Shown: positions 14,658 to 28,687 of the stretch, in pieces
Layout: every line of letters starts with the position of its first letter
Position numbering within the stretch: position 1 is the first letter of the stretch
Assembly (NCBI GenBank): GCA_017745595.1
Contig: WMBV01000001.1
Location: 248,001-312,000, forward strand
DNA length: 64,000 nucleotides
Direction: 5' to 3'
Source: Bordetella petrii
GTDB lineage: Bacteria > Pseudomonadota > Gammaproteobacteria > Burkholderiales > Burkholderiaceae_B
The notes under the pieces: generated by a model
The model's input: the letters and a program-made list of their open reading frames with translations, nothing else
Told to the model about the DNA's origin: nothing
The model's database searches: none
Position numbers and translations under genes: made by a program

Positions 14658-15158
14658 ATGCGCCAGCTTCGTCTTGCCGAAAGCGCTCTGTTCAAGGGTG
14701 TATCGGTCATTGCCCAGGTCCTGCTCGTGGCCTCGGCCGCCGCCGCCTTCTATCAGGTCATTGCCCGCTTCATCCTGCACGAACCCTCCGACTGGAGCGA
14801 GGTGCTGACCCGCGCGCTGCTGATCTGGACGGTGCTGCTGGGCATCGCCCTGGCCTTCCGCCGCGGCGCGATGATCAGCGTAGAGCTGCTGCACAACCTG
14901 CTGCAAGGCCACAAGCGGCGCTTGCTGGAACACCTGATCGCCATCATCTGCGTGGCCTTTCTGGTGTTCATCGCCTGGGTGGGCGGGCAGATGACTTACC
15001 GGGTGCGCTTCCAGAACGTGCCCAGCCTGAATATTTCGATTTCCTGGATTTACCTGGCGATTCCGGTGGGCACCTCGCTGGCGGCCATTGCCGTACTGGC
15101 GCGCTGGCTGCTCGGCGCCGACGAGCCCGCCCTGGTGCGCAACGACGCGCAGGGATGA
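14658..15158 (+). CDS. dctQ: TRAP transporter small permease (DctQ family)
   Basis: A 166-residue membrane protein with four hydrophobic segments and the DctQ landmark W(S)EVLTRALLIW followed by RRGAMISVELL. It couples the receptor to the large permease. It follows dctP by 92 nt of GC-rich DNA and is separated from dctM by an unusual 262-nt spacer holding a strong hairpin. Confidence 0.9.
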   Translation: MRQLRLAESALFKGVSVIAQVLLVASAAAAFYQVIARFILHEPSDWSEVLTRALLIWTVLLGIALAFRRGAMISVELLHNLLQGHKRRLLEHLIAIICVAFLVFIAWVGGQMTYRVRFQNVPSLNISISWIYLAIPVGTSLAAIAVLARWLLGADEPALVRNDAQG

Positions 15159-15221
15159 GGCCCACCCCCGAAGCGCTGCGCGCGTTCCACCTCGCGGCTG
15201 GCAGGCCGCTCGGATTCGCCA

Positions 15222-15255
15222 GGCAGGGAACAGTCCTCAAGGACTGTTCCCTGCC
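15222..15255. repeat. Perfect 15-bp inverted repeat between dctQ and dctM
   Basis: A 15-nt arm (GGCAGGGAACAGTCC) and its exact complement flank a TCAA loop. No T-run follows, so it is not a standard intrinsic terminator. The surrounding spacer (15159-15420) is very GC-rich and has several CCC/GGG-type inverted stretches, ending in an AT-rich 30 nt just before dctM. No convincing gene is seen in the spacer. It may be a repetitive element, an mRNA processing or stabilising hairpin, or an attenuator. Confidence 0.75.
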
Positions 15256-15420
15256 CGGGCTCATCCCCCTCAAGGGGGCGGCGCTGGCGGACCGGCGGAG
15301 CCGGAGCCGCGGCGCCCCGGATCGAGGCGCGCTGGTGCCATGTGGCGACAAGGAGCGCGTAGCAGCCGGGGAGCAGGCAGTGACGAAGAACTTATATGTA
15401 CTAACTAAAGAAAGTACGCC

Positions 15421-16698
15421 ATGTCTCAATTAATGATCTTGACGATGCTGATCTTCTTCGGGCTGTCGGTGCCCGTGGCGGTCGCGATCGGTCTGGCCAG
15501 CCTGGCTGGCGTGTCGCTGGGCGGGCTGCCCTGGCTGGTGGTGGCCCAGCAGCTGTATGCGGCGCTCGACAAATATCCGCTGGTGGCCGTGCCCTTCTTC
15601 ATTCTGGCCGGCAACCTGATGGAAGCGGGCGGCATTTCGGACCGCATGGTCGAGTTCGCCAAAAGCGTGGTGGGCGGCGTCCAGGGCGGGCTGGCCTGCA
15701 CCTGCGTGCTGACCTGCATGATCTTCGCCGCGGTGGCCGGCTCCAGCGTAGCCACCACCTTCGCCGTGGGCGCGATCCTGATCCCCGCGATGGTCCGCCA
15801 CGGCTACCCGGCGCCCTTCGCCGCGTCGCTGCAGGCCAGCGCGGCGGAACTGGGCGTGATCATCCCGCCGTCCATCCCGATGATTCTGTTCGCCGTGTCC
15901 ACCGACACCTCGACCGGCGAGCTCTTCATCGCCGGCGTCGTGCCCGGCATCCTGATCGGCGGCGCGCTGATGCTGTATGTGTGGCTGTACGCCAAGCGCC
16001 ACGGCCTGGGCAAACGCGACGGCGAAGGCCGCCTGCCGCTGTGGCCGGCCTTCAAGCGCGCCTGGCTGGCGCTGCTGATGCCGGTGATCATCCTGGGCGG
16101 CATCTATGGCGGCATCTTCACGCCCACCGAAGCCTCGGTCGTGGCGGTGGTGTACGCGGTGGTGGTCGGCAAGTTCGTCTACGGCAAGCTCAGCTTCCGC
16201 ACACTGTCCGACACCCTGCACCGCTCGGTGATTTCCACGTCGGTCATCATGTTCATCATCGCCAACGCCGGCGTGTTCAGCTTCCTGCTCAACCGGGCCG
16301 GCGTGCCCGACGCGCTGGGCACCTGGCTGGCGCAACTGTTCCACGACAAGACCGCCTTCCTGCTGGGCATGAATGCCGCGCTGTTCATCATCGGCATGTT
16401 CATCGAAACCTCGGCCTCGGTGGTGGTGCTGGCCCCGCTGCTGCTCCCGGTCGCCATGCAGTTCGGCGTCGAGCCGGTGCACTTCGGCGTCATCATGGTG
16501 GTCAACCTGGCGCTGGGCATGATCACGCCGCCATTCGGCGTGAACCTGTTCGCCGCTTGCGCGGTGGCCGGGCTGCCGTTGGAACGCCTGGTCCGCCCCC
16601 TGATTCCATTCGTATTGGTGGTCATCGCCTGCCTGATGGTCATTACCTACTGGCCCGGCCTGTCGCTGGGGCTGCGCGACCTGGTCTACGCCAAGTAG
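15421..16698 (+). CDS. dctM: TRAP transporter large permease (DctM family)
   Basis: A 425-residue, about 12-TM secondary transporter that uses an ion gradient to import the DctP ligand. Family landmarks include IPPSIPMILFAVSTDTSTGELFIAG near residue 156 and ITPPFGVNLFAACAVAGLPLE near residue 365. The start is preceded by a purine-rich AAAGAAAGT stretch. The gene is distanced from dctQ by the hairpin-bearing spacer but on the same strand, so it should be part of the same operon. Confidence 0.93.
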   Translation: MSQLMILTMLIFFGLSVPVAVAIGLASLAGVSLGGLPWLVVAQQLYAALDKYPLVAVPFFILAGNLMEAGGISDRMVEFAKSVVGGVQGGLACTCVLTCMIFAAVAGSSVATTFAVGAILIPAMVRHGYPAPFAASLQASAAELGVIIPPSIPMILFAVSTDTSTGELFIAGVVPGILIGGALMLYVWLYAKRHGLGKRDGEGRLPLWPAFKRAWLALLMPVIILGGIYGGIFTPTEASVVAVVYAVVVGKFVYGKLSFRTLSDTLHRSVISTSVIMFIIANAGVFSFLLNRAGVPDALGTWLAQLFHDKTAFLLGMNAALFIIGMFIETSASVVVLAPLLLPVAMQFGVEPVHFGVIMVVNLALGMITPPFGVNLFAACAVAGLPLERLVRPLIPFVLVVIACLMVITYWPGLSLGLRDLVYAK

Positions 16699-17164: not shown

Positions 17165-17908
17165 TCATCCAGCCGCGTCGCTGCCCTGCGCAGGAAACAC
17201 GCCGCCCAGGCGAACCGTCAGTTGCCGGGCCGCCTGCAATACCGGCCCGGCGAAAGCCGGATCTAGACGTTCGGTAGGCATGGTAAGCGTCAGCGTACCG
17301 GCCAATTGCTGGTCGGCGCCGAATACTGGCGCGGCCACGCCGGCCACTTCGGCAAGACGATCGCCCGCCAGCACCGCCACCTGCTCGCGGCGGATGCGCG
17401 CATAAATCTCGCCCTGCTCGCCGCTGTAGGCCAGCATGACCCTGCCGCCTGCACCATGGTCGAGCGGCAGCAGGTCGCCCACCCGGATATGGTCGCGCAC
17501 CGGCCGCGGTGAATCGACCCGGTGCAGGCACAGCCGCCTGGCCCCCTGACGAATGTAAAACGCGGCGCTTTCCTGCGTTTGCGCCACCAGCTCGTGCAGC
17601 ACGGGCATCACCAGGGGTTCCAGCGAGAACGAGTTGGCATACACCAGGTGCAGACGCGCGATTTCCGGCCCCAGCGCATAGCGGCCATCGGGCAGCTTGA
17701 CCACGAAATGCGCGTGTTCCAGTGACGACAGCATGCGCAACACCGTGCTTTTGTGGATGCGCGTACGCGCCGCGATATCGGCCAGCGAGGGATGGGGCAA
17801 TTCGCCCGAGAACACGGCCAGCACGGCCAACGCGCGGTCCAGCGTAGCGACACCGCCGGCGGCGGCATTCAGATCGGCAACTGAAGGAATGGCGGGTCTG
17901 CGGGGCAT
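17165..17908 (-). CDS. IclR-family transcriptional regulator
   Basis: A 247-residue regulator with an N-terminal winged HTH (SLADIAARTRIHKSTVLRML, near residues 42-61) and the C-terminal IclR effector domain (GDLLPLDHGAGGRVMLAY and related). An ATG upstream at 17971 is in frame, but the extra residues are hydrophobic and would overlap the operator region, so the start at 17908 (MPRRPAIPS) is preferred. It is divergent from the catabolic operon at 18005 and most likely controls it through the palindrome at 17978-18000. Confidence 0.9.
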   Translation of the reverse strand: MPRRPAIPSVADLNAAAGGVATLDRALAVLAVFSGELPHPSLADIAARTRIHKSTVLRMLSSLEHAHFVVKLPDGRYALGPEIARLHLVYANSFSLEPLVMPVLHELVAQTQESAAFYIRQGARRLCLHRVDSPRPVRDHIRVGDLLPLDHGAGGRVMLAYSGEQGEIYARIRREQVAVLAGDRLAEVAGVAAPVFGADQQLAGTLTLTMPTERLDPAFAGPVLQAARQLTVRLGGVFPAQGSDAAG

Positions 17909-17946
17909 GCGGGCAAGGGGGAACAACCAAAACCAGGCAGTGTAGC

Positions 17947-18000
17947 TTGACACCTGCTTCAGTCGCGCCATATCATAAAGATAGAATATCGTTCTATCTT
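17947..18000 (+). promoter_or_regulatory. Promoter of the catabolic operon with overlapping IclR operator candidate
   Basis: TTGACA (17947-17952) and TATCAT (17971-17976), 18 nt apart, form a strong sigma-70 promoter. A perfect 9-bp inverted repeat, AAGATAGAA (17978-17986) and TTCTATCTT (17992-18000), sits directly on the expected transcription start and ends 4 nt before the ATG at 18005. A bound repressor would block initiation, and in RNA the repeat could also fold over the start region, which has no Shine-Dalgarno. Confidence 0.7.
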
Positions 18001-18004
18001 AACA

Positions 18005-18766
18005 ATGTCCCTTGCCACAGACAACCTGCGCATCGAACGGCACTCCGGCTGGTCAGTAATCCATATCAACCGCCCCGACAAGCGCAACGCTCTGAACCGC
18101 GCCATGCGCACCGGCCTATTGGCCGCCCTGCGCAGCCTGGAACACGAAGCGCACGCCATCGTGCTGACCGGCAGCGGCAGCGCCTTCTGCGCCGGTCTGG
18201 ACCTAAAAGAGCAGGCGGCCGACCGCGCCGCCGGACGCGACACGGGCTCGGCGGAATGGCTGGAACTCAATGCCGCGATCCGCGCGCACCCCGCGGTGTT
18301 CATTGCGGCGGTCAACGGCGTGACGCTGGGCGGCGGTGTCACCTTCATGAATTCTTGCGACCTGGCCCTGGCCAGCACCGAGGCCAGTTTTGCCTGCCCC
18401 GAATTGGGCTTCGGCTCTTATGCCAGCGCCTCCGGCCCCACCACGCAGTTGTCGGGCATCGCCCGCAAGCGTGCCGCCTGGCTGCTGCTGACCACCGACC
18501 GCCTGGACGCGGCCACGTTCGAGCGCTGGGGGTTGATAAACGAAGTTGTTGCGCCGGCAGCCTTGCTGCCGCGCGCCACCGGCCTGGCCGCGCGCCTCGC
18601 CGGGCATGACCCGACGGTGCTCGCCGCCGTCAAGCACGCCCTGGACCACATTCCCGCCGTGGTCCGCGGCTGGCGCGAAGCCATGGAGTACGGCCAACGC
18701 GTCAATGCCGATCTCCGGCGCCACAACCCACGCAGCTCTATTCCCGCACAGGAGACAACTCCATGA
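18005..18766 (+). CDS. Enoyl-CoA hydratase/isomerase (crotonase family)
   Basis: A 253-residue crotonase. The first oxyanion-hole segment is GSGSAFCAGLDLKEQA and the second AAVNGVTLGGGVTFMNSCDLAL. It is expected to hydrate, or otherwise act on, an acyl-CoA thioester made by the CoA-transferases downstream. It is the first gene of the operon, directly behind the operator, and its stop overlaps the Bug receptor start (ATGA at 18763-18766). The usual catalytic Glu pair of short-chain hydratases is not clearly conserved by eye, so a specialised reaction is possible. Confidence 0.88.
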   Translation: MSLATDNLRIERHSGWSVIHINRPDKRNALNRAMRTGLLAALRSLEHEAHAIVLTGSGSAFCAGLDLKEQAADRAAGRDTGSAEWLELNAAIRAHPAVFIAAVNGVTLGGGVTFMNSCDLALASTEASFACPELGFGSYASASGPTTQLSGIARKRAAWLLLTTDRLDAATFERWGLINEVVAPAALLPRATGLAARLAGHDPTVLAAVKHALDHIPAVVRGWREAMEYGQRVNADLRRHNPRSSIPAQETTP

Positions 18767-19740
18767 CTATCCGCCTTTCCCGCCGGTCGATGCTGGCTTT
18801 GCTGGGCGCCGCCGCCCTGGCGCCAGCCCATGGTCAACAGTCCTATCCGAACAAGCCTGTCACCATCGTGGTGCCCTTCTCGGTAGGCGGCAGCACCGAC
18901 CTGGTGGCGCGCCTGATCGGCGACCAGCTCGGCGAGGCACTGGGTCAGCCCGCCATCGTCACCAACCGCACCGGCGGTGGCGGTGTGGTGGGCTGGAGCA
19001 ATGTGGCGCGCGCCGAACCCGATGGCTACACCGTGCTCACCACCGAAATGTCGTTCGCCATCGCGCCCGGCCTGCTGTCGAACCTGCCGTTCGACGCCAA
19101 GAAAGGCTTCACGCACATCACCACCGCCGTGCAGGTGCCGCACGTGCTGGTGGTCAACCCCAACGTGCCGGCCAAGACTGTGCAGGAACTGATCGCGCTG
19201 GCCAAGCAAAAACCCGGCGAGCTGTTCTACGGCTCGGGCGGCAACGGCACCAACACCCACCTGGCGGCCGAGTTATTCAAAGACGCGGCCGGTGACCTGG
19301 ACATCGTGCACGTGCCCTACAAGGGCGCGGGTGCCGTACTGGCCGACCTGATGGGCGGCCAGGTGCAGATGCTGATCACCTCGCTGCCCACGGCCCTGCC
19401 CCACATCCAGTCGGGCAAGCTGCGCGCCTTGATGATGGCCAGCGACAAGCGCAGCCCCGCGCTGCCCGACGTGCCCAGCGCGCCCGAAGTGGGCCTGCCG
19501 CGCATGGACATCAAGTTCTGGATCGGCTTCGCCGCCCCCGCCGGCACCCCGCAGGCGGCCATCGACAAGCTCAACCAGTCCATCATTGCCACCCTGCGCC
19601 TGCCCGCCTCGCAGCAGCGACTTGAGCAGATGGGCATGGAAACCATCGGCAATACACCGGCCGAGGCCGCGCGCCTGGTCCAGCAAGAGATGGACCGCTG
19701 GGCCGAGGTCATCAAACAACGCGGCATCAAAGTCGACTGA
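18763..19740 (+). CDS. Tripartite tricarboxylate transporter (Bug) substrate-binding protein
   Basis: A 325-residue periplasmic receptor of the Bug/TctC family. A signal peptide (SRRSMLALLGAAALAPAHG, twin-Arg-like) is followed by the family opening SYPNKPVTIVVPFSVGGSTD. Bug proteins bind carboxylates such as citrate, malate, nicotinate or aromatic acids and often lack dedicated TctAB partners, as here. Its place inside a CoA-ester catabolic operon implies it captures the pathway substrate. The start is fixed by the ATGA overlap with the hydratase gene. Confidence 0.93.
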   Translation: MTIRLSRRSMLALLGAAALAPAHGQQSYPNKPVTIVVPFSVGGSTDLVARLIGDQLGEALGQPAIVTNRTGGGGVVGWSNVARAEPDGYTVLTTEMSFAIAPGLLSNLPFDAKKGFTHITTAVQVPHVLVVNPNVPAKTVQELIALAKQKPGELFYGSGGNGTNTHLAAELFKDAAGDLDIVHVPYKGAGAVLADLMGGQVQMLITSLPTALPHIQSGKLRALMMASDKRSPALPDVPSAPEVGLPRMDIKFWIGFAAPAGTPQAAIDKLNQSIIATLRLPASQQRLEQMGMETIGNTPAEAARLVQQEMDRWAEVIKQRGIKVD

Positions 19741-19750
19741 GCCTTCAGAC

Positions 19751-20953
19751 ATGGCATACCGACCTTTGCACGACATCCGCGTCCTGGACCTGACCAATGT
19801 GCTGGCAGGCCCCTTCGCCTGCCACCAGCTTGCCCACCTGGGCGCCCACGTCATCAAGGTCGAGGCGCGCGGCACGGGCGATCTGGCGCGCCAGCTGGGC
19901 GCCGATCCGGTCCTGAACCAGCGCGGCATGGGCGCTTCTTTTCTGGCACAGAATGCCGGCAAGCGCTCGATCACCATCGATCTCAAGCAACCGGATGGCA
20001 AGGCGGTGTTCCGCCGCCTGGTGCAACAGGCCGACGTGGTGGTCGAGAATTTCCGGCCGGGTGTCATGCAGCGGCTGGGACTGGGCTTTGAACAGTTGCG
20101 CACCGACAATCCTCGGCTGGTCTACTGCGCCATCTCGGGTTTCGGGCAGGACGGGCCGCTGCGCAACCTGCCCGCCTACGACCAGATTGTGCAGGGCATG
20201 TCGGGCGCCATGAGCATCACGGGCAGCCCCGAGTCGGCGCCACTGCGGGTGGGCTATCCGGCGGCCGACACCATCGGCGGCATGACGGCCGCGTATGCCA
20301 TCGCGGCGGCACTGGCCGACCGTCAGCGCACGCAGGCTTGTTTCATCGACATTTCCATGCTGGAAGCCATGATGGCCACCATGGGTTGGGCGGTTTCCAA
20401 CTACCTGGTGGCCGGCCGCGAGGCACGGCCGATGGGTAACGAGAACATGACGGCCAGCCCCTCGGGCACCTTCCAGACCGGCGCCGGGCTGCTCAATATC
20501 GCCGCCAACCGGCAAACCCAGTTCGAGGCGCTGTGCCGCGTCATCGGTCGTCCGGAGCTGGTACAGGACGCACGCTACGCCGAACGCGAAGCGCGCCTGC
20601 GCCATCGCTACGAGCTCAAGGCCGATATCGAACAAGCGCTGCAGGCCAGAAGCGCCGAAGAATGGTGGCCCCTGCTGACTGCAGCCAGCGTGCCGGCGGG
20701 CCCCGTCTACACGGTGCCGCAGGCGCTGGCGCACCCGCAGATCGCCGAGCGCGGCATGATCGCCACGTTTCCCGACGCGCCGGGCGTACAACGCGATGTC
20801 AGTGTGCTGCGCACCGGCATCAAGCTGGATGGCCAGGCGCCGGCCGTGGATACCCCTCCTCCGACGCTAGGCCAGCACACCGACGCCATTCTGGCGGAAC
20901 TGGGCTACAGCGCGGCTGACATTGCAGCACTCAAAGCGGAGCAGGCAGTATGA
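19751..20953 (+). CDS. CaiB/BaiF (class III) CoA-transferase
   Basis: A 400-residue class III CoA-transferase. The N-terminal family motif is IRVLDLTNVLAGPFACHQLAHLG region, and the catalytic Asp expected in YPAADTIGG is Asp173. It would move CoA from a donor thioester to a carboxylic acid. It follows the Bug gene by 10 nt and overlaps the second transferase by ATGA (20950-20953). Its substrate is unknown; see the pathway finding. Confidence 0.92.
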   Translation: MAYRPLHDIRVLDLTNVLAGPFACHQLAHLGAHVIKVEARGTGDLARQLGADPVLNQRGMGASFLAQNAGKRSITIDLKQPDGKAVFRRLVQQADVVVENFRPGVMQRLGLGFEQLRTDNPRLVYCAISGFGQDGPLRNLPAYDQIVQGMSGAMSITGSPESAPLRVGYPAADTIGGMTAAYAIAAALADRQRTQACFIDISMLEAMMATMGWAVSNYLVAGREARPMGNENMTASPSGTFQTGAGLLNIAANRQTQFEALCRVIGRPELVQDARYAEREARLRHRYELKADIEQALQARSAEEWWPLLTAASVPAGPVYTVPQALAHPQIAERGMIATFPDAPGVQRDVSVLRTGIKLDGQAPAVDTPPPTLGQHTDAILAELGYSAADIAALKAEQAV

Positions 20954-22389
20954 GCAACAGGCAAACCGGCAAAGTATCGGCCTTTGAGGAACTGATGCAG
21001 GTGCGCAACCTGGGCGCCATCGACCCGGGCGAAGTCACCATCTCGGGCCACGACCCGTTCTACAACACGCCGTACCGCGTGGGCGAGGCCGTGGCGGCCA
21101 GCATCGCCGCGGCAGGCGTGGCGGCCAACGACATCTGGCAACTGCGCACCGGCCGGCGCCAGACCTTGAGTGTGGACGTACGGGCCGCCGCCGCCACGCT
21201 TCGTACGGTCGACTACACCCGTGCCCGCCAGCCTGACGGCAGCTACGCGCACGTGCCGATCCCCCAGGCTATGTCGCATATGCTGTTGGTGACCCAGCCG
21301 TGGCCGACGCGCGACGGCCAATGGCTGTTGCCGCATCTGAATCTGCCGCACCTGTCGGCGCGCGTGCTTGATGTCCTGCAATGCGAAAGCACGCCGGCCG
21401 CGGTCAGCGCGGCCGTGGGCCGCTGGGACGCCGACGCGCTGGAAGACGCCATTGCCGCGGCGCGCGCCTGCGGCGGCAAAATCCGCACCGAAGCTGAATG
21501 GCTGGCTCATCCGCAAGGCCGCTATCTGGCCGGCCAGCCGGTGATCGAGATCACCAAGCTGGACGATTCGGCGCCCGAGCCGTTCCTACCGGGCGCTCGC
21601 CCCCTGTCGGGCGTGCGCGTGCTGGACCTGACACGCATCCTGGCCGGCCCCGTCGCTGGCCGCAGCCTGGCCGAGCACGGTGCCGACGTGCTGATGGTAA
21701 CGGCGCCGCACTTGCCGCAAACGCCGGAGCACGTGCGCGACACCAGCCATGGCAAGCGCAGCTGCTTCCTGGATCTGCGCCAGCGCGGCGACGCGGACAC
21801 CATGCGTGCGCTGTTGCGCGAGGCCGATGTCTTCATCGACGGCTACCGGCCCGGCAGCCTGGCCGGCCTGGGCTTCGCGCCCGACGAACTGACGCGCCTG
21901 CGGCCAGGTCTGGTGCAGTTGTCGGTCAGTTGCTTCGGTTCGGGCGGCCCATGGGCTGATCGGGCCGGTTGGGAACAGGTGGCGCAGGCCGTGACCGGCG
22001 TGTGCCATCGCAACGGCCAGCTAACCAACCAGGGCCGGCCCAAGCTGGTGTTCGCGCCGCTGTGCGACTACACCACCGGCTACCTGGGTGCGTTGGGCGT
22101 GATGCTGGCCCTGGCGCGCCGTGCGCGCGAAGGCGGCAGCTACCGGGTGCACGTTTCACTGTGCCAATCGGCCATGTTCGCGCAACGCCAGGGGCTACTC
22201 GATACCTACCAGAATGCCCCTCAACAACTCGACGCCGATGAGCTCGAGACCTACACAGTGGCGTCGGATACCTGCTACGGGCCCCTGAAAACCCTGGGTC
22301 CGGTGCTGCGCATGTCTGAAACCGCGCCGCGATGGGCCATTCCCACGCCACGCCTGGGCGGCAACCCCGCCGCCTGGCAATCCCGCTGA
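20950..22389 (+). CDS. Second CaiB/BaiF-type CoA-transferase with extended N-terminus
   Basis: A 479-residue protein. The standard CaiB start motif (SGVRVLDLTRILAGPVAGRS) is displaced to about residue 218, and the catalytic Asp of APLCDYTTGY is Asp373. The first roughly 210 residues resemble the small-domain half of CaiB proteins (RDGQWLLPHLN, EAEWLAHPQGRYL), so the domain order appears shuffled relative to the 400-residue neighbour. It overlaps that neighbour by ATGA, so the two may form a heteromer or act in sequence. Transferase activity is inferred from the retained Asp. Confidence 0.85.
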   Translation: MSNRQTGKVSAFEELMQVRNLGAIDPGEVTISGHDPFYNTPYRVGEAVAASIAAAGVAANDIWQLRTGRRQTLSVDVRAAAATLRTVDYTRARQPDGSYAHVPIPQAMSHMLLVTQPWPTRDGQWLLPHLNLPHLSARVLDVLQCESTPAAVSAAVGRWDADALEDAIAAARACGGKIRTEAEWLAHPQGRYLAGQPVIEITKLDDSAPEPFLPGARPLSGVRVLDLTRILAGPVAGRSLAEHGADVLMVTAPHLPQTPEHVRDTSHGKRSCFLDLRQRGDADTMRALLREADVFIDGYRPGSLAGLGFAPDELTRLRPGLVQLSVSCFGSGGPWADRAGWEQVAQAVTGVCHRNGQLTNQGRPKLVFAPLCDYTTGYLGALGVMLALARRAREGGSYRVHVSLCQSAMFAQRQGLLDTYQNAPQQLDADELETYTVASDTCYGPLKTLGPVLRMSETAPRWAIPTPRLGGNPAAWQSR

Positions 22390-22403
22390 TTCTCCGAGGT
22401 GCC

Positions 22404-23240
22404 ATGACCACTCCCGACTCCGATTCCCGCCAGCTTGCGCAAGACTGGTGGCGCACGTCCATCATCGACATGCAGCCCGGCGTAATCCGCTATCGCGGCT
22501 ATGCCATCGAAGACCTGATCGGCCACATCGGGCTGGCGCACATGATCTGGCTGCTGACACGCGGCGAGCTGCCCGGGCCGCAGCAGGCCGGTCTGCTCGA
22601 AGCCGCGCTGATGTCGGCGGTGGACCACGGGCCGCAGGCGCCCAGCATTGCCATCGCACGCATGGCGGCCACCTGTGGAGTGGGCCTGAACAGCGCCATG
22701 GCCTCGGCCGTGAATGTGTTGGGCGACGTGCACGGCGGCGCGGGCGAACAGGCGCTGCAGCTGTACCTGGATGCAGCCGCGCGCGTCGATGCCGGCACGC
22801 CCCTGGCGCAAGCCGTAGCCGATGCCGTGGACGCTTATGCCGAAGTGCACGGCCAGACCATTCCTGGTTTCGGCCATCGCTTCCATCCCGTGGATCCGCG
22901 CAGCGCGCCGCTGCTGGCGCTGGTGGACCGTGCCGCGCAGGCCGGTGCGGTCAGCGGCCGCCACGCCGCCACGGCACGCGCCATCGAAGCCCTGCTGCAT
23001 GCGCGCAAGGGCAAGCCCATTCCCATGAACATCGACGGCGCCACCGCGGTGATTTATGCCGAACTGGGGTTCGCCCCGGCGCTGGCGCGCGGCCTGTTCT
23101 GCCTGTCACGCTCGGTGGGCGTACTGGCGCACGCATGGGAACAGACCCTGCAGGGCGGCCGCATCAAGGGTCCCATGCCGCGCCAGTTTCTGCCCACCTA
23201 CGACGGCCCGCCGCCCCGGCCGCTACCCGCCACGGAGTAA
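22404..23240 (+). CDS. Citryl-CoA lyase-like protein (citrate synthase superfamily)
   Basis: A 278-residue member of the citrate synthase fold, about 100-150 residues shorter than true citrate synthases and close in size to citryl-CoA lyases. The three superfamily catalytic positions are present: His110 (DVHGGAGEQ), His158 (PGFGHRFHP) and Asp211 (MNIDGATA). Such enzymes cleave citryl-CoA, or an analogue, to acetyl-CoA and a 2-oxo acid. The gene lies 14 nt after the CoA-transferase pair, a placement that fits a final C-C cleavage step. A condensing reaction in reverse cannot be excluded. Confidence 0.87.
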   Translation: MTTPDSDSRQLAQDWWRTSIIDMQPGVIRYRGYAIEDLIGHIGLAHMIWLLTRGELPGPQQAGLLEAALMSAVDHGPQAPSIAIARMAATCGVGLNSAMASAVNVLGDVHGGAGEQALQLYLDAAARVDAGTPLAQAVADAVDAYAEVHGQTIPGFGHRFHPVDPRSAPLLALVDRAAQAGAVSGRHAATARAIEALLHARKGKPIPMNIDGATAVIYAELGFAPALARGLFCLSRSVGVLAHAWEQTLQGGRIKGPMPRQFLPTYDGPPPRPLPATE

Positions 23241-23243
23241 GCC

Positions 23244-24179
23244 ATGTGGAATCTATCGTTCGAGCCACCCCAGGTCGTGCCGGCGCACGCACTGGCTTCC
23301 CTGCCCGAGGCCTTGCGCCTGCGCCGCCCGAGCGAATGGGCCGCCGCCAATAAGCCCGGGCAGACCGTCGACAGTTTCCTGGAAGGCCCCGCGTTCGACC
23401 GCGCGGGCAATTTGTATCTGACCGACATTGTGCATGGACGCATCTTCCGTCTGGCACCCAACGGCCAGTGGCACACGGTCGCCGAAACCGGTGGCTGGCC
23501 CAACGGCATCGCCATCGATCCCGACGGCGACCTGTGGGTGGCCGACTACCGGCGCGGCCTGCTGCGCGTGCGGCCGGCGGACGGCGCGGTGGAGACCGTG
23601 CTGGGACACCGCAACTCGGAAAGCTTCAAGGGCCTCAACGACCTGCACTTCGACCTGCAGGGCAATCTGTATTTCACCGACCAGGGCCAAACCGGCCTGC
23701 ACGACCCGAGCGGCCGCGTCTATCGCCTGCGGCCGTCCGGACTGCTGGATCTGTTGCTGTCCAACGGCCCCAGCCCCAACGGCATCGCGCTGGACCCAGC
23801 CGGCCACGTGCTGTATGTGGCCATGACCCGCGCCAACGCCATCTGGCGTGCGCCCTTGCTGGCCGACGGCTCGCTGTCGAAAGTGGGCGCCTTCCGTACC
23901 TTCTTCGGCGCCAGCGGCCCCGATGGTCTGGCAGTGGATGCCGCGGGCCGGCTGGTCGTGGCCCACGCCAGCCTGGGTGGCGCCTTTGTGTTGAACCCGC
24001 GCGGAGAAATCACCCATTTCATCCGCAGCCCGGCCGGCACCACCGTCACCAACCTGGCTTTCCGCCCCGGCACGCCCACCTTGGTAATGACCGAATCACA
24101 AACCGGCACGGTGCTGGAAGCCACCCTGCCCGACCCGGGCGCACCGTTGTGGTCCCATGCCGACGCAACGCGTACCTGA
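23244..24179 (+). CDS. SMP-30/gluconolactonase-family protein
   Basis: A 311-residue six-bladed beta-propeller of the SMP-30/gluconolactonase/LRE family. It shows repeated blade motifs (FDRAGNLYLTDI, IDPDGDLWVADY, FDLQGNLYFTDQ), a metal-site-like EGPAFD near residue 49 and SPNGIALDP near residue 175. It has no signal peptide, so it is cytoplasmic. These enzymes open lactones or related esters. It starts 3 nt after the lyase stop and is the last gene of the operon, suggesting that a lactone is the substrate, a by-product, or an intermediate tautomer. Confidence 0.9.
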   Translation: MWNLSFEPPQVVPAHALASLPEALRLRRPSEWAAANKPGQTVDSFLEGPAFDRAGNLYLTDIVHGRIFRLAPNGQWHTVAETGGWPNGIAIDPDGDLWVADYRRGLLRVRPADGAVETVLGHRNSESFKGLNDLHFDLQGNLYFTDQGQTGLHDPSGRVYRLRPSGLLDLLLSNGPSPNGIALDPAGHVLYVAMTRANAIWRAPLLADGSLSKVGAFRTFFGASGPDGLAVDAAGRLVVAHASLGGAFVLNPRGEITHFIRSPAGTTVTNLAFRPGTPTLVMTESQTGTVLEATLPDPGAPLWSHADATRT

Positions 24180-24359: not shown

Positions 24360-25673
24360 TCAACGCGGCCGCTTGTCCACCACCCGCCGCGCCTTGCCCG
24401 TCAGGGTGCGTTCGACGAAACCGCAGTCGGCCACGCGCACCCGCGCGGTGACGCCGATGTACGACTTGACCGCATGCTGCAGCTGCTTGCCCAGCGCCTC
24501 GCGCTCGGCGTCGGCCAGGCTGGCGAATTCGTCGCGCACTTCGGTCAGGATCTCCAGCTCGTCCAGATGGCCGGTGCGTGTCAGCACCAGCTGGTAGTGC
24601 GGCGCCAATTGCGCGATTTTCAGCACCTGCTCTTCGACCTGGGTGGGAAACAGGTTCACCCCGCGCACGATCAGCATGTCGTCGCTGCGGCCGGTGATCT
24701 TGCCGATGCGCCGCATGCTGCGCGAGGTGGGCGCCAGCAGCCGGGTCAGGTCGCGGGTGCGATAGCGGATGATGGGCATGGCTTCTTTGGTCAGCGAGGT
24801 GAACACCAGCTCGCCCGGCTCGCCGTCGGCCACCGGCACGCCGGTATCCGGATGGACGATCTCGGCATAGAAATGGTCTTCCCACACCACCGGGCCGTCT
24901 TTGGATTCCACGCATTCGCTGGCCACGCCCGGCCCCATCACCTCCGACAAACCGTAAATGTCCACGGCATCCAGCCCGGCTTCGGCTTCGATGTCCTGGC
25001 GCATCTGCCCCGTCCAGGGCTCGGCGCCGAAAATCCCGACGCGCAGCGAACTCTGGCGCGGGTCGATGCCCTGGCGGCGCTGCTCTTCGATGATGTTGCA
25101 GAAGTACGAGGGCGTCACCATGATGATGTCTGGACGCAAATCGTTGATCAGCTGCACCTGCTTTTCGGTCTGGCCGCCCGACATCGGAATCACGGTGCAC
25201 CCCAGCCGTTCGGCGCCGTAATGCGCGCCCAGCCCGCCGGTGAACAGCCCGTAGCCGTAGGCCACGTGCACGATGTCGCCCGGCTTGCCGCCCGCCGCCC
25301 GGATCGAACGCGCCACCAGGCCGGCCCAGTTGTCGAGGTCGCGCGCGGTATAGCCCACGACCGTCGGCTTGCCGGTGGTGCCGCTGGACGCATGCACGCG
25401 CGCGACCTGCTCGCGCGGCACCGCGAACATGCCAAACGGATAATTGGCGCGCAGGTCTTGCTTGGTGGTGAACGGGAACCTGGCAAGATCGGATAACTGC
25501 TTCAGGTCGTCCGGATGCACGCCGGCCGCGTCGAACGCCTGCCTGTAGTGCGGCACGTTCTGGTAGGCATGCGCCAGGGTCCGCTTCAGGCGCTCGAGCT
25601 GCAGCGCTTCGATTTCATCGCGGCTGGCATGTTCTATGGGATCCAGCCCGGGCCTGCTCTCGGTATTGGACAT
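24360..25673 (-). CDS. paaK: Phenylacetate-CoA ligase
   Basis: A 437-residue AMP-forming ligase that converts phenylacetate to phenylacetyl-CoA with ATP and CoA, the entry step of the aerobic paa pathway. The P-loop-like SSGTTGKPTVVGYT motif (about residues 96-109) and the C-terminal RGVNLFPTQVEE hinge region typical of PaaK are present. Its length matches the family (about 430). It is the last gene of the minus-strand paa run, 79 nt after paaI, and meets the convergent lactonase across the REP cluster. Confidence 0.95.
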   Translation of the reverse strand: MSNTESRPGLDPIEHASRDEIEALQLERLKRTLAHAYQNVPHYRQAFDAAGVHPDDLKQLSDLARFPFTTKQDLRANYPFGMFAVPREQVARVHASSGTTGKPTVVGYTARDLDNWAGLVARSIRAAGGKPGDIVHVAYGYGLFTGGLGAHYGAERLGCTVIPMSGGQTEKQVQLINDLRPDIIMVTPSYFCNIIEEQRRQGIDPRQSSLRVGIFGAEPWTGQMRQDIEAEAGLDAVDIYGLSEVMGPGVASECVESKDGPVVWEDHFYAEIVHPDTGVPVADGEPGELVFTSLTKEAMPIIRYRTRDLTRLLAPTSRSMRRIGKITGRSDDMLIVRGVNLFPTQVEEQVLKIAQLAPHYQLVLTRTGHLDELEILTEVRDEFASLADAEREALGKQLQHAVKSYIGVTARVRVADCGFVERTLTGKARRVVDKRPR

Positions 25674-25752
25674 GAGGTCGTCTCCTGGAATGCTGTGCGG
25701 CGCGACGCCGCTTTATCGTAATAAGTGTGGCGGTACAGAAAAATCGGGGCCT

Positions 25753-26223
25753 TCACACGTCCGGCGGCACGCCGACGATCTGCCCCTTGATCCGGTGTGA
25801 GCGGCCGCGGAACAGCGCCAGCTGCCGCCCGTCCTGGTTGGTGACGACCACGTCATAGACACCGGTGCGCCCCGCCAGCGACCGTTCCTGGGCCACCGCC
25901 GTCAACAGGTCGCCCTCGAGACCCGGGGCCAGGAAATCGATGGTGCAGCCCGACGCGACGGTACTGGCGTTGCGCGAGTTGCAGGCAAAGGCGAACGCAC
26001 TGTCGGCCAGCGCGAAAAGAAAGCCGCCATGGCAGGTCTGGTGGCCGTTCAGCATGTCGGGGCGCACGCGCATGGTCAGGCGCGCGAAGCCGGGGCCGAT
26101 CTCGGCCACCTGCATGTCCAGCCCCTGCGTGGCGGCATCCACCGCATACATGGCGGCGCCCACGGCCTGGGCCAGTTCGTGCGGGTCGCCGGGCACATCG
26201 ACGGCGGGTACGTGTACGGTCAT
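25753..26223 (-). CDS. paaI: Phenylacetyl-CoA pathway thioesterase
   Basis: A 156-residue hot-dog-fold thioesterase. The family segment NGHQTCHGGFLFALADSAFAFAC holds the helix and the catalytic Asp, and ASGCTIDFLAPG follows. PaaI releases CoA from hydroxylated phenylacetyl-CoAs and dead-end thioesters. The start ATG overlaps the paaG stop (TGATG at 26223). Its size fits PaaI (about 140), with a short N-terminal addition. Confidence 0.92.
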   Translation of the reverse strand: MTVHVPAVDVPGDPHELAQAVGAAMYAVDAATQGLDMQVAEIGPGFARLTMRVRPDMLNGHQTCHGGFLFALADSAFAFACNSRNASTVASGCTIDFLAPGLEGDLLTAVAQERSLAGRTGVYDVVVTNQDGRQLALFRGRSHRIKGQIVGVPPDV

Positions 26224-27011
26224 CAGCGCCCCTTGAATTGCGGTTCGCGCTTGCCCAGGAACGCGGCCACGCCTTCGGCGTAGTCGGCGCTGCGGCCCAG
26301 CTCGCGCATCAGGTCGCGCTCGAGATCCAGCTGCGCGGACAAGTCGTTGTGCAGGCTGGCCTGCAGGGCCTGCTTGGTGCTGGCCAGCCCCCGCGTGGGC
26401 GCGGCGGCGAAATGCGCCGCCAGCTTGTCCAGCGCGCCGTCGAACTCGTCGTCGGCCACGCACTGCCAGATCAACCCCCAGTCTTGCGCCTGCCGCGCGC
26501 CCAGCTTGTCGCCCAGCATCGCCAGCCCCATGGCGCGCGCCCGCCCCACCAGCCGCGGCAACACGAAGGTGCCGCCGGTGTCGGGAATCAGGCCCAGCCG
26601 GCAGAACGACTGGATGAAGCTGGCCGATTCTTTGGCGATGACGATGTCGCCCGCGAATGCCAGGTTGGCGCCCGCCCCCGCGGCCACGCCGTTCACGCCC
26701 ACCACTACCGGCAGGGGCAGCGCGTTCAGGCGGCGCACCAGCGGCGCGTAGTACTTGTCGACGGTCTCGCCCAGGTCGGGCGGCGTGCCGTCGGCCGCCA
26801 TTTGCCGCTCGCTCAGGTCTTGCCCGGCGCAGAAACCCCGGCCCGCGCCCGTCAGCACCAGCACGCGCGCCCCCTCGCGCTCGACGCGGGTCAGCGCGTC
26901 GGCCACCTCGCCGTGCATGGCGGCCGTGAAGCTGTTGAGCTTGTCGGGGCGATTGAGCGTCAGCCGGGCGATGCCGCCGGACAGGTCGAACAAGATGTTC
27001 TGGTAAGTCAT
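26223..27011 (-). CDS. paaG: Ring 1,2-epoxyphenylacetyl-CoA isomerase
   Basis: A 262-residue crotonase that rearranges the ring epoxide to the oxepin-CoA. Oxyanion-hole segments GAGRGFCAGQDLSERQ and VGVNGVAAGAGANLAFAGDI are present, along with the PaaG-like SFIQSFCRLGLIPDTGGTF. It lies 11 nt after the paaN stop and overlaps paaI. PaaG rather than PaaF is chosen by the DLSERQ and GLIPDTGGTF motifs. Confidence 0.92.
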   Translation of the reverse strand: MTYQNILFDLSGGIARLTLNRPDKLNSFTAAMHGEVADALTRVEREGARVLVLTGAGRGFCAGQDLSERQMAADGTPPDLGETVDKYYAPLVRRLNALPLPVVVGVNGVAAGAGANLAFAGDIVIAKESASFIQSFCRLGLIPDTGGTFVLPRLVGRARAMGLAMLGDKLGARQAQDWGLIWQCVADDEFDGALDKLAAHFAAAPTRGLASTKQALQASLHNDLSAQLDLERDLMRELGRSADYAEGVAAFLGKREPQFKGR

Positions 27012-27022
27012 GGCGTGCCCTT

Positions 27023-28687
27023 TCAGATGTGGCGGCGCGTCTGCACGACGCGATAGCGGTTGGCCACGAAGGCGGAATCCGACAGCGCCGCGTTGGCGGC
27101 GGGGTTGGCGCCGGTACCGTGAAAGTCGCTGAAGGCGGCGGTCTGGTTCACGAACACCGGGCCGGTCAGGTTCAGCGACAAGGCCACGCCCGCGACCTCG
27201 GCGGCATCCTGCACCTGGCGGGCGACGGCCTCGTCGGTGGTGTAGGCCGACAGCGACAGCGCGCCGTGGCGCACGACGCTGTCGCGCGCCAGCGCAATGC
27301 TGTGCGCCGTGGAATCGGTAGCCACCACGAAGGCGATGGGGCCGAACCATTCTTGCGCGATGGCCGGATTGCCGGCTTCGGCGCGCAACAGCAACGGCGT
27401 GCGCACGCGGGCGCCGTCGAACTGCGGATGCGCCAGCGCCTGGCTGTCGGCCACCACCGGCAGCCCCAGGGCGCGCGCCTGGTCGATGCGCGCCGCGATG
27501 CCTTCGTTCTGGATGGCGCCGGTCAGTTCCACCGCCTTGGCCGGATCGGCGCACAGCTTCTGCAGGGCCGTGCCCAGCGCCGCGGCGACCTCGTCGAAGC
27601 TGGCGTGGCCATCGGCGGTGTCGATGCCGTCGCGCGGCACGTAGATATTCTGCGGCGCCGTGCACATTTGGCCCGAATACAGTGCCAGCGAAAAGGCCAG
27701 GTTGCGCGCCATGCCTTTCAGGTCATCGGTGGAATCGACGATCACCTGGTTGACGCCGGCTTTCTCGGTGTACACCTGCGCCTGCCGCGCATGCTGCTCC
27801 AGCCAATTGCCGTTGGCGCTGCTGCCGGTGAAGTCGATGATCTTTACCGCCGGGTCCTGCGCCAATTGCCGCGCCGTGTCGTCGTCCGCCGCATGCGCGG
27901 CCAATTGCACCACGTCGGCGTCGAAGCCCGCTTCGGCCAGCACCTCGCGCGCCACCTGCACGGTAATGGCCAGCGGCAGGATCGCGCCCGGATGCGGCTT
28001 GACGATCACCGTGTTGCCGGTGGCCAGGCTGGCGAACAGGCCCGGATATCCATTCCAGGTAGGAAAGGTCGAGCATCCGATCACCAGCGCGACGCCGCGC
28101 GGCACTACCGTGAAGCGCTTTTCCATCTTGATGGGATCATTCTTGCCTTGTGGCTTTTCCCAGAGCGCCACGCCCGGAATGCGCGCCATTTCCTGCCAGG
28201 CATAGGTCACGGCCTCGACCCCGCGATCCTGCGCATGCGGGCCACCCGCCTGGAACGCCATCATGAAGCCCTGCCCCGTCGTGTGCTGCACGGCATGGGC
28301 GACTTCAAAACTGCGCCGGTTCAGGCGCGCCAGGATTTCCAACGACACGCCGACCCATGCGCGCGGCCCGGCGCGGCGCCATTGCTCCAGCGCGCGGGCG
28401 GCGTTCTGCACCAGGGTGGCGGGCGGCACGCGCGCATAATCGATATCCAGCGCAAAACCGTAAGGCGACTGCTCGCCGCCCACCGTGCCCTGGGCGCCGG
28501 CCGGCGCCAGCGGAAAGGCCTGGCCGCGCAGGGCCTCGAAGGCCGCGCGGCCGTCTTCGCCGGCCGTTTCCCCGTAATGGCGCGGGCTGGGCGATTCGGC
28601 AAACGGGCTCCAGTAGCCACGCTCGGCCGCGGCGGCCTGGGCTCGTTCAAGCAAGGCCTGGTGGCGTTCGAAAAAATCAGTGGGCAC
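27023..28687 (-). CDS. paaN: Phenylacetic acid degradation protein PaaN (aldehyde dehydrogenase fold)
   Basis: A 554-residue aldehyde dehydrogenase-like protein matching the PaaN family, which substitutes for the ALDH half of PaaZ. The catalytic Cys lies in YSGQMCTAPQNIYVP (about residue 342), and KFTVVPRGVALVIGCSTFPTW begins the cofactor domain. It should oxidise the ring-opening semialdehyde; the MaoC-type hydratase domain of E. coli PaaZ is absent here. The start codon is GTG at 28687 (PTDFFERHQ). Start choice and the PaaN/PaaZ label are the main uncertainties. Confidence 0.87.
   Translation of the reverse strand: MPTDFFERHQALLERAQAAAAERGYWSPFAESPSPRHYGETAGEDGRAAFEALRGQAFPLAPAGAQGTVGGEQSPYGFALDIDYARVPPATLVQNAARALEQWRRAGPRAWVGVSLEILARLNRRSFEVAHAVQHTTGQGFMMAFQAGGPHAQDRGVEAVTYAWQEMARIPGVALWEKPQGKNDPIKMEKRFTVVPRGVALVIGCSTFPTWNGYPGLFASLATGNTVIVKPHPGAILPLAITVQVAREVLAEAGFDADVVQLAAHAADDDTARQLAQDPAVKIIDFTGSSANGNWLEQHARQAQVYTEKAGVNQVIVDSTDDLKGMARNLAFSLALYSGQMCTAPQNIYVPRDGIDTADGHASFDEVAAALGTALQKLCADPAKAVELTGAIQNEGIAARIDQARALGLPVVADSQALAHPQFDGARVRTPLLLRAEAGNPAIAQEWFGPIAFVVATDSTAHSIALARDSVVRHGALSLSAYTTDEAVARQVQDAAEVAGVALSLNLTGPVFVNQTAAFSDFHGTGANPAANAALSDSAFVANRYRVVQTRRHI

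Follow-up and report, generated by a model that had tools for sequence, protein, structure and literature searches.

Which carboxylic acid is degraded by a compact operon lying divergent to an IclR-family regulator gene in Bordetella petrii, and by which reactions? The operon was found in a 64,000-nucleotide stretch (hereafter the window; GenBank assembly GCA_017745595.1, contig WMBV01000001.1, positions 248,001 to 312,000 of the forward strand), and it encodes a citrate-synthase-fold lyase for coenzyme A (CoA) esters together with a class III CoA-transferase, CaiB1. Judging from sequence comparison, we consider it somewhat probable that the operon is a catabolic unit under IclR control, in which CaiB1 and the lyase would form a CoA-level counterpart of citrate lyase and convert a branched hydroxy acid to acetyl-CoA and a keto acid, the latter more likely monocarboxylic than oxaloacetate. 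The elements of the locus are as follows, in window coordinates; below, the prefix L denotes loci compared and the prefix G genomes, G000 being the window's own genome.

17165..17908, minus strand: IclR-family regulator, 247 residues (Pfam IclR_C and HTH_IclR; start by comparison with L123, the longest open reading frame reaching 17971)
17947..17976, plus strand: sigma-70-like promoter, TTGACA-18-TATCAT, 11 of 12 positions, called from the consensus match
17978..18000, no strand: probable IclR operator, a perfect palindrome, AAGATAGAA-N5-TTCTATCTT, called from conservation of the pattern
18005..18766, plus strand: crotonase-family protein with Thr113 and Glu133 at the catalytic Glu positions (Pfam ECH_1, alignment)
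18763..19740, plus strand: Bug/TctC periplasmic receptor (Pfam TctC, 263.7 bits)
19751..20953, plus strand: CaiB1, class III CoA-transferase, 400 residues, Asp173 in AADTIGG (Pfam CoA_transf_3)
20950..22389, plus strand: CaiB2, a 479-residue class III CoA-transferase relative, Asp373 in LCDYTTG (Pfam CoA_transf_3, partial)
22404..23240, plus strand: citrate-synthase-fold CoA-ester lyase, 278 residues, with His110, His158, Asp211 and Gly256 (NF004864, 'citryl-CoA lyase')
23244..24179, plus strand: SMP-30/gluconolactonase family protein, probable lactonase (Pfam SGL, 134.6 bits)

A divergent IclR gene and one tight operon of crotonase, Bug, two class III CoA-transferase, lyase and SMP-30 genes had been described in a first-pass annotation of this DNA. 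This layout was confirmed by Pfam and profile scans of the window's proteins, which assigned the seven genes at these positions to IclR (minus strand), ECH_1, TctC/Bug, CoA_transf_3 (twice), Citrate_synt and SGL/SMP-30, and by the intergenic steps inside the operon of -4, 10, -4, 14 and 3 bases. The start of CaiB1 was corrected to 19751, and the relative in L123 indicated that the IclR protein probably starts at 17908 and not at 17971. A second genome of the genus (L123) contained the whole gene set in unchanged order, with 65–89% identity, and thus the set is not a chance assembly. The gene spacing, the one promoter-like site and the conserved operator suggested that the genes are co-transcribed.

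Conservation of the CoA-transferase and lyase pair

The search for lyase relatives yielded 141 loci, of which 97 had 4 kb on both sides and 87 remained after near copies were removed. A CaiB gene was located within 4 kb of the lyase gene in 82 of the 87 loci, 79 of these being at least 50% identical to CaiB1, and no CaiB gene was detected near the lyase in L013, L016, L043, L075 and L095. IclR, Bug and TctA genes were found near the lyase in 41, 35 and 14 loci, respectively. Among eight operons facing the same IclR, five (L124, L125, L126, L127, and L138) contained, of the window's genes, Bug, CaiB1 and the lyase alone, and three (the window, L123, and L135) added crotonase and SMP-30, two of them CaiB2 as well. 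These results demonstrated that the conserved unit is CaiB together with the lyase.

CaiB1 covers the full CoA_transf_3 domain and contains Asp173 of the catalytic Asp motif of class III CoA-transferases. Its nearest solved relatives were YfdE, an acetyl-CoA:oxalate CoA-transferase, and succinate-HMG CoA-transferase (HMG, 3-hydroxy-3-methylglutaryl). In CaiB2, the Pfam CoA_transf_3 match was confined to residues 219–427; the recognisable half spans residues 217–427, with approximately 215 other residues preceding it, and Asp373 was present. Relatives of CaiB2 at E ≤ 1e-60 were detected in 32 of the 121 genomes of the window's family, often adjoining a Bug gene, and true copies were found in two of the 87 lyase loci (L061 and L123), indicating that CaiB2 is optional in the cluster; a higher figure of 38 loci was set aside, since the CaiB2 query had also picked up CaiB1. 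A test for reordered domains gave an hhalign probability of 36%, the structure model had a pLDDT (predicted local distance difference test) score of 33, and a reordering of the CaiB2 fold is possible.

The lyase exceeded the profile cut-off in 26 of the 121 family genomes and in 2 of the 321 genomes of the class sample, its own genome included. Furthermore, in 134 of 72,556 plasmid records a match of any identity spanned 80% or more of the lyase query, with 22 best places at 60–80% identity, and at least 552 stretches of one public genome collection encoded lyase relatives, 80 of which were kept. Deducing the substrate from one common neighbour was tried and rejected, as no downstream enzyme was common to all loci and the sets varied by clade. 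The clade-specific neighbours, among the 87 loci, were a 2-hydroxyacid dehydrogenase with RraA (8), a thiamine pyrophosphate (TPP) enzyme (8), and an aldehyde dehydrogenase (9). Since the downstream sets differ by clade, the lyase family may serve several side chains.

Several neighbourhoods are recorded here as separate observations. D-2-hydroxyacid dehydrogenase and RraA-like (PRK06201) genes stood together near the lyase in L036, L039, L043, L074, L129, L134, L137, and L139. In L008, L012, and L015, the lyase and CaiB genes adjoined a TcuA-like relative of tricarballylate dehydrogenase, and L012 also contained an aconitase gene. In L007, L066, L076, and L077 (Azoarcus, Aromatoleum and a Thiobacillus metagenome-assembled genome), the CaiB–lyase pair had as a neighbour a QuiC-type 3-dehydroshikimate dehydratase encoded as two separate halves; AroD, a TPP enzyme and, in three of the four, AroE were also present, the profiles having been run on L077 only.

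Substrate site of the lyase

The lyase matched the NCBIfam profile NF004864, 'citryl-CoA lyase', with 459.8 bits (cut-off, 261), and the family is already named in that database. Its closest PDB relative by sequence was 6hxp, the Hydrogenobacter citryl-CoA lyase (E 8.5e-39). The AlphaFold2 model of the lyase had a mean pLDDT of 89.7, and a Foldseek search returned 6hxp as the top match (E 8.1e-17), followed by ATP-citrate-lyase modules. The length of 278 residues and the presence of His110, His158 and Asp211, reported in the first-pass annotation, were verified. Among 115 distinct relatives sharing at least 50% identity across 240 or more residues, these three residues as well as H75, R166 and R236 were invariant (115/115). 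Accordingly, the window lyase agreed with the NF004864/6hxp type in profile score, closest fold and catalytic His/His/Asp. The proposal of CoA activation followed by C–C cleavage of the citryl-CoA type was likewise supported by 6hxp as the nearest structure and by the CaiB gene near 82 of the 87 lyases.

A different result was obtained for the basic residue that a citryl-CoA lyase would be expected to place at the oxaloacetate site from the other subunit. An excerpt of PMC5021468 gives the substrate-binding residues of the Sulfolobus tokodaii citrate synthase 1vgm as His184, His219, His259, Arg268, Arg339, and Arg359', where the prime denotes the other subunit. In the HMMER alignment of the lyase with 1vgm, whose register was R253–R356, G256–R359 and P257–P360, the first five residues had H75, H110, H158, R166 and R236 as counterparts, and the counterpart of Arg359' was Gly256, which was found in 114 of the 115 relatives. 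Comparison with citryl-CoA lyase and citrate synthase structures, as suggested in the first-pass annotation, therefore upheld the fold and the triad as in 6hxp but not the inter-subunit Arg. We read the pocket as one that may suit a keto acid lacking one of the two carboxylates of oxaloacetate. In the own genome, there were eight further, weaker match rows of the lyase profile (two in one gene) on contigs C44, C20, C68, C66, C11, and C22, some of them of citryl-CoA-lyase size and some within longer citrate-synthase-type proteins.

Two unrelated lyases beside related regulators

The 19-base core of the operator occurred once in the window at up to two mismatches, compared with an expectation of 0.01. 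No second site at up to two mismatches was detected in the own genome; the closest other matches were four sites with three mismatches (two for a reversed control pattern). The core was perfect beside the IclR orthologue in seven of the eight family genomes where the regulator faces a lyase operon (G000, G053, G047, G120, G077, G100, and G045), and it had two mismatches in the eighth (G005). Two further genomes with a perfect operator had no lyase over the cut-off; there, an IclR gene (56% identity) faced genes for a Bug receptor, an HMG-CoA-lyase-type protein (hereafter HMGL) and another CaiB (L196 and L197).

The search with IclR found relatives in 32 of the 121 family genomes, as 38 match rows comprising 8 of the lyase type, 22 that were examined, and 8 weaker ones that were left out. 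An HMGL gene was located within about 5 kb of the related IclR gene in 19 of the 22 further loci, the distance exceeding 4 kb in L242 and L244, and 17 of these 19 contained a CaiB gene as fetched (L237 and L247 did not). The operator was present with up to three mismatches in 15 of the 19 HMGL loci, each time a match equalled by no more than 4 of 300 shuffles; in L239 and L241, it was sought between the IclR and HMGL genes, which run in the same direction there. Among four genomes with a one-mismatch site, that of G087 was at an HMGL-type IclR, those of G040 (C3) and G097 (C1) were not, and G048 was outside the check. The HMGL proteins passed the hydroxymethylglutaryl-CoA lyase profile NF004283 (L196, 299.5 bits; L240, 277.5 bits; cut-off, 246). 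HMGL was found in none of the 87 lyase loci, and the lyase in none of the 22 further IclR loci.

The two types of loci also had accessory genes in common. SMP-30 was present in 7 of the 19 HMGL loci, and five of these proteins formed a supported clade with the SMP-30s of the window, L123, L135, and L061; those of L239 and L241 lay outside. An MR/MLE-type enzyme, 75% identical, was common to L135 (lyase) and L245 (HMGL). A trio of dehydrogenase genes (an oxidoreductase, a succinate-semialdehyde-type enzyme and a 4-hydroxybutyrate-dehydrogenase-like enzyme) stood with the lyase in Roseibium L013 (4368–8828) and with HMGL in L237 (1809–6391) and L240 (683–6508, with a CurA-like oxidoreductase and CaiB too); the profiles run on the trio in L240 and on part of it in L013 scored below their cut-offs. 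The window-type Bug receptor (55–86% identity; next best, 43%) was found in 8 of 106 loci, which included both types. Two unrelated lyases thus appear to have been exchanged while the regulator, operator, receptor and lactonase stayed. Given Gly256, and given that HMGL genes replace the lyase next to a similar regulator and operator, the keto acid would more likely be monocarboxylic, of the pyruvate, hydroxypyruvate or acetoacetate type, than oxaloacetate. We tentatively suggest, at less than even confidence, that the citrate-synthase-fold enzyme is not a citryl-CoA lyase, that its keto product has one carboxylate, and that it is interchangeable with the HMG-CoA-lyase type and serves a lactone-fed pathway.

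Proposed pathway, alternatives and known systems

In the proposed pathway, the Bug receptor would catch the acid or its lactone and present it to an unlinked permease, and the SMP-30 protein, a probable lactonase by its SGL domain, would open the lactone. CaiB1 would transfer CoA from acetyl-CoA or succinyl-CoA to a branched acid with a tertiary hydroxyl, charging it at its CH2-COO end, and the lyase would split the CoA ester into acetyl-CoA and the keto acid. If acetyl-CoA were the donor, it would be regenerated, and the net conversion would be acid to keto acid plus acetate with nothing else required; such a self-closing cycle would explain the constancy of the CaiB1 and lyase pair. The crotonase and CaiB2 would be optional extras widening the intake. 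Import and lactone opening, both part of the first-pass proposal, were supported as accessory functions, as lactonase-family genes recurred near the lyase in 18 of the 87 loci (SMP-30 in 10, Amidohydro_2 in 8) and were found farther out in 1, the far stretches being larger than the near ones (915 kb vs 696 kb). On the lyase tree, 8 changes were required for SMP-30 (no fewer than 6 when well-supported branches are counted) and 13 for lactonase-family genes of any kind, suggesting that the unit has repeatedly gained or lost such genes. Of the eight loci with the window-type Bug receptor, seven had a lactonase-family gene no more than 6 kb away (SMP-30 in 4, Amidohydro_2 in 3), an association with a Fisher p of 1.3e-4 over loci that are not independent; the remaining locus had the MR/MLE enzyme. 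Upstream of the IclR gene, DctQ and DctM genes of a tripartite ATP-independent periplasmic permease were observed at 14658–16698 of the window, and they do not adjoin IclR in L123. Minus-strand genes at 24360–27665 (PaaK, thioesterase, and crotonase) face the operon; they are phenylacetate-like and were left out of it.

The first-pass annotation had envisaged import of an aconitate- or itaconate-like acid and its activation with CoA; the crotonase would then add water to give an ester of the citryl or citramalyl type, which would be cleaved, and the lactonase would serve a lactone form. The gene content fits this route: L123 and L061 have the full set, L135 has all of it except CaiB2, and crotonase and SMP-30 co-occur in these three loci. 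The nearest solved relatives of the crotonase were enoyl-CoA hydratases. The catalytic pair of rat enoyl-CoA hydratase is Glu144 and Glu164; in contrast to this two-glutamate pattern, the window protein has Thr113 at the first position and keeps Glu133 at the second, a pattern seen in 4 of 4 orthologues. Isomerase, decarboxylase or chemically altered hydratase activity would each be possible for this protein. Moreover, the crotonase gene was found in 3 of the 87 lyase loci and in 3 of the 8 operons facing the same IclR, the window included. Its rarity, the lost Glu and its absence from the other five operons indicated that hydration is not a core step, so the claim of an obligatory hydration was not supported, and with Gly256 also speaking against it, we regard this route as quite improbable. 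The NCBIfam name and score and the proximity to 6hxp would suit a true citryl-CoA lyase, with CaiB1 and the lyase replacing citrate lyase on citrate, homocitrate, hydroxycitrate or their lactones and releasing oxaloacetate or another dicarboxylic keto acid. The TctA genes near 14 lyases, the regulators of the CitA/DpiA type in some relatives, and the RraA-like proteins in 8 loci, whose family includes oxaloacetate decarboxylase and CHA aldolase, point in the same direction. However, citrate enters the tricarboxylic acid cycle directly and has no stable gamma-lactone, and the Gly at the inter-subunit Arg position together with the HMG-CoA-lyase-type gene in the lyase's place makes citryl-CoA, the ester favoured in the first-pass annotation, a doubtful substrate. 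We therefore consider a true citryl-CoA lyase rather improbable.

It is also conceivable, though somewhat unlikely in our judgement, that the substrates of the lyase and of the HMG-CoA-lyase-type enzyme differ and that reuse was limited to the regulator family, the operator type and the lactonase. The IclR identity of 47–57% between the types and the 32–33% identity of the paired CaiBs are consistent with this explanation. In addition, three of the 19 HMGL genomes (G018, G030, and G087) carry the lyase at a separate locus, so the two kinds are not exclusive per genome; the separate lyase sits with the dehydrogenase/RraA set in G018 and, as judged from L036, in G030. These three genomes make our preferred interpretation, and the suggestion that the two enzymes are interchangeable, slightly less likely and the use of different substrates likelier. 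On the other hand, different substrates would not be expected from the single clade of five HMGL-type and four lyase-type SMP-30s, from the receptor orthologues and MR/MLE enzyme common to both types, or from the dehydrogenase trio shared by L013, L237, and L240.

Further observations weigh against the monocarboxylic, lactone-fed pathway that we prefer. With the HMGL-type IclRs only 47–57% identical to that of the window, one inducer for both types can be suggested at most; the operator was not detected in four HMGL loci (L237, L240, L242, and L244) or in 5 of the 22 further loci overall, and it was present in L248 and L249, which have no HMGL. Six Cupriavidus IclRs with 59–60% identity had no such operator, and the site carried three mismatches in L046 and four in L061. 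Regarding the lyase, 6hxp has Lys at the Gly256 position (counted by hand in the alignment), one lost Arg does not settle the substrate, and the invariant neighbours Arg253 and Lys255 could compensate. In an excerpt of PMC10115795, one group concludes for human ATP-citrate lyase that the homologous module has an allosteric instead of a catalytic role, Asp1026 being unneeded for cleavage; in that light, a conserved triad is no proof of cleavage. Citrate-like acids are suggested by other neighbours, namely TctA, the CitA/DpiA-type two-component genes and the TcuA-like flavoprotein of L012, which fell just below its cut-off (350.5 vs 369 bits). As for the lactonases, the lactonase, Amidohydro_2, TPP and similar queries were taken from lyase neighbourhoods, which favours near counts over far ones. 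The Amidohydro_2 proteins were called lactonases on a weak fuconolactonase match (75.9 bits vs a cut-off of 400), the L141 protein is a distant SMP-30 relative (32%), and L011 and L016 have apparently truncated versions.

Comparison with known systems placed the operon between several of them. The Hydrogenobacter thermophilus citryl-CoA lyase (6hxp) and the ATP-citrate-lyase module resemble the window lyase in fold, length and His/His/Asp, and a retro-aldol release of acetyl-CoA would be expected. The partner of the 6hxp-type enzyme is a synthetase, whereas the window lyase is paired with a class III CoA-transferase, has Gly256 instead of Lys or Arg, and lies in operons with transporters. Bacterial citrate lyase, composed of the CitF transferase, the CitE lyase and an acyl carrier protein, follows the same two-step logic of acyl exchange onto a thiol carrier and subsequent cleavage; the window system would use CoA in place of a dedicated carrier protein and belongs to other families (CoA_transf_3 and Citrate_synt). 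The HMG-CoA-lyase-type protein with CaiB (L196, L197, and L231) shares a related IclR, the operator and Bug, and in 7 of 19 loci SMP-30, but its lyase belongs to another Pfam family (PF00682) and its CaiB to another subfamily. In the itaconate pathway, Ccl is a CitE-type lyase, unlike the Citrate_synt lyase of the window, and no CitE-type citramalyl-CoA lyase was detected among the eight window proteins scanned with Pfam. As outlined in an excerpt of PMC12290011, that pathway consists of a CoA transferase, a hydratase and a citramalyl-CoA lyase (Ict/Ich/Ccl) and shares CoA transfer followed by cleavage to acetyl-CoA and a keto acid.

The candidate acids are itatartarate, whose lactone is 2-hydroxyparaconate, HMG-type acids, citramalate, which has no gamma-lactone, and citrate-type acids, which are disfavoured by Gly256. 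2-Hydroxyparaconate is a fungal itaconate derivative that inhibits bacteria. A concrete candidate route would lead from 2-hydroxyparaconate through itatartarate and itatartaryl-CoA to hydroxypyruvate and acetyl-CoA, with HMG or a mevalonolactone-derived acid as the alternative. In the part of PMC9875883 that concerns it, the Pseudomonas aeruginosa lactonase PA0880 opened 2-hydroxyparaconate to itatartarate, which accumulated as a dead end, and the engineered Pseudomonas putida strains tested showed no growth when given both compounds as a mixture. The lactone of an R-C(OH)(COOH)-CH2-COOH acid described there is the kind of substrate that the window core would need; PA0880 has 127 residues and is a relative of a putative ring-cleaving dioxygenase, whereas the window lactonase is of the SMP-30 family.

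The first-pass statement that no operon with this gene set had been described stood insofar as no paper on this operon, or on a citryl-CoA lyase with CaiB, was recognised among the papers listed in searches of an incomplete open-licence library, but the lyase family itself was already known by name (NF004864). As far as searched, neither the pathway nor the operator nor the exchange between the two unrelated lyases is known. Through this analysis, the lyase family is linked to a single constant partner, to a defined operator and to lactonase-family genes that recur, and the residue change argues against the NCBI name citryl-CoA lyase. Two unrelated lyases beside related switches represent a natural experiment that makes the substrate directly testable. 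If the proposed reading is true, the family annotation would be wrong, bacterial metabolism would gain a widespread route that handles branched hydroxy acids as well as their lactones, and the itatartarate candidate would supply a route beyond itatartarate.

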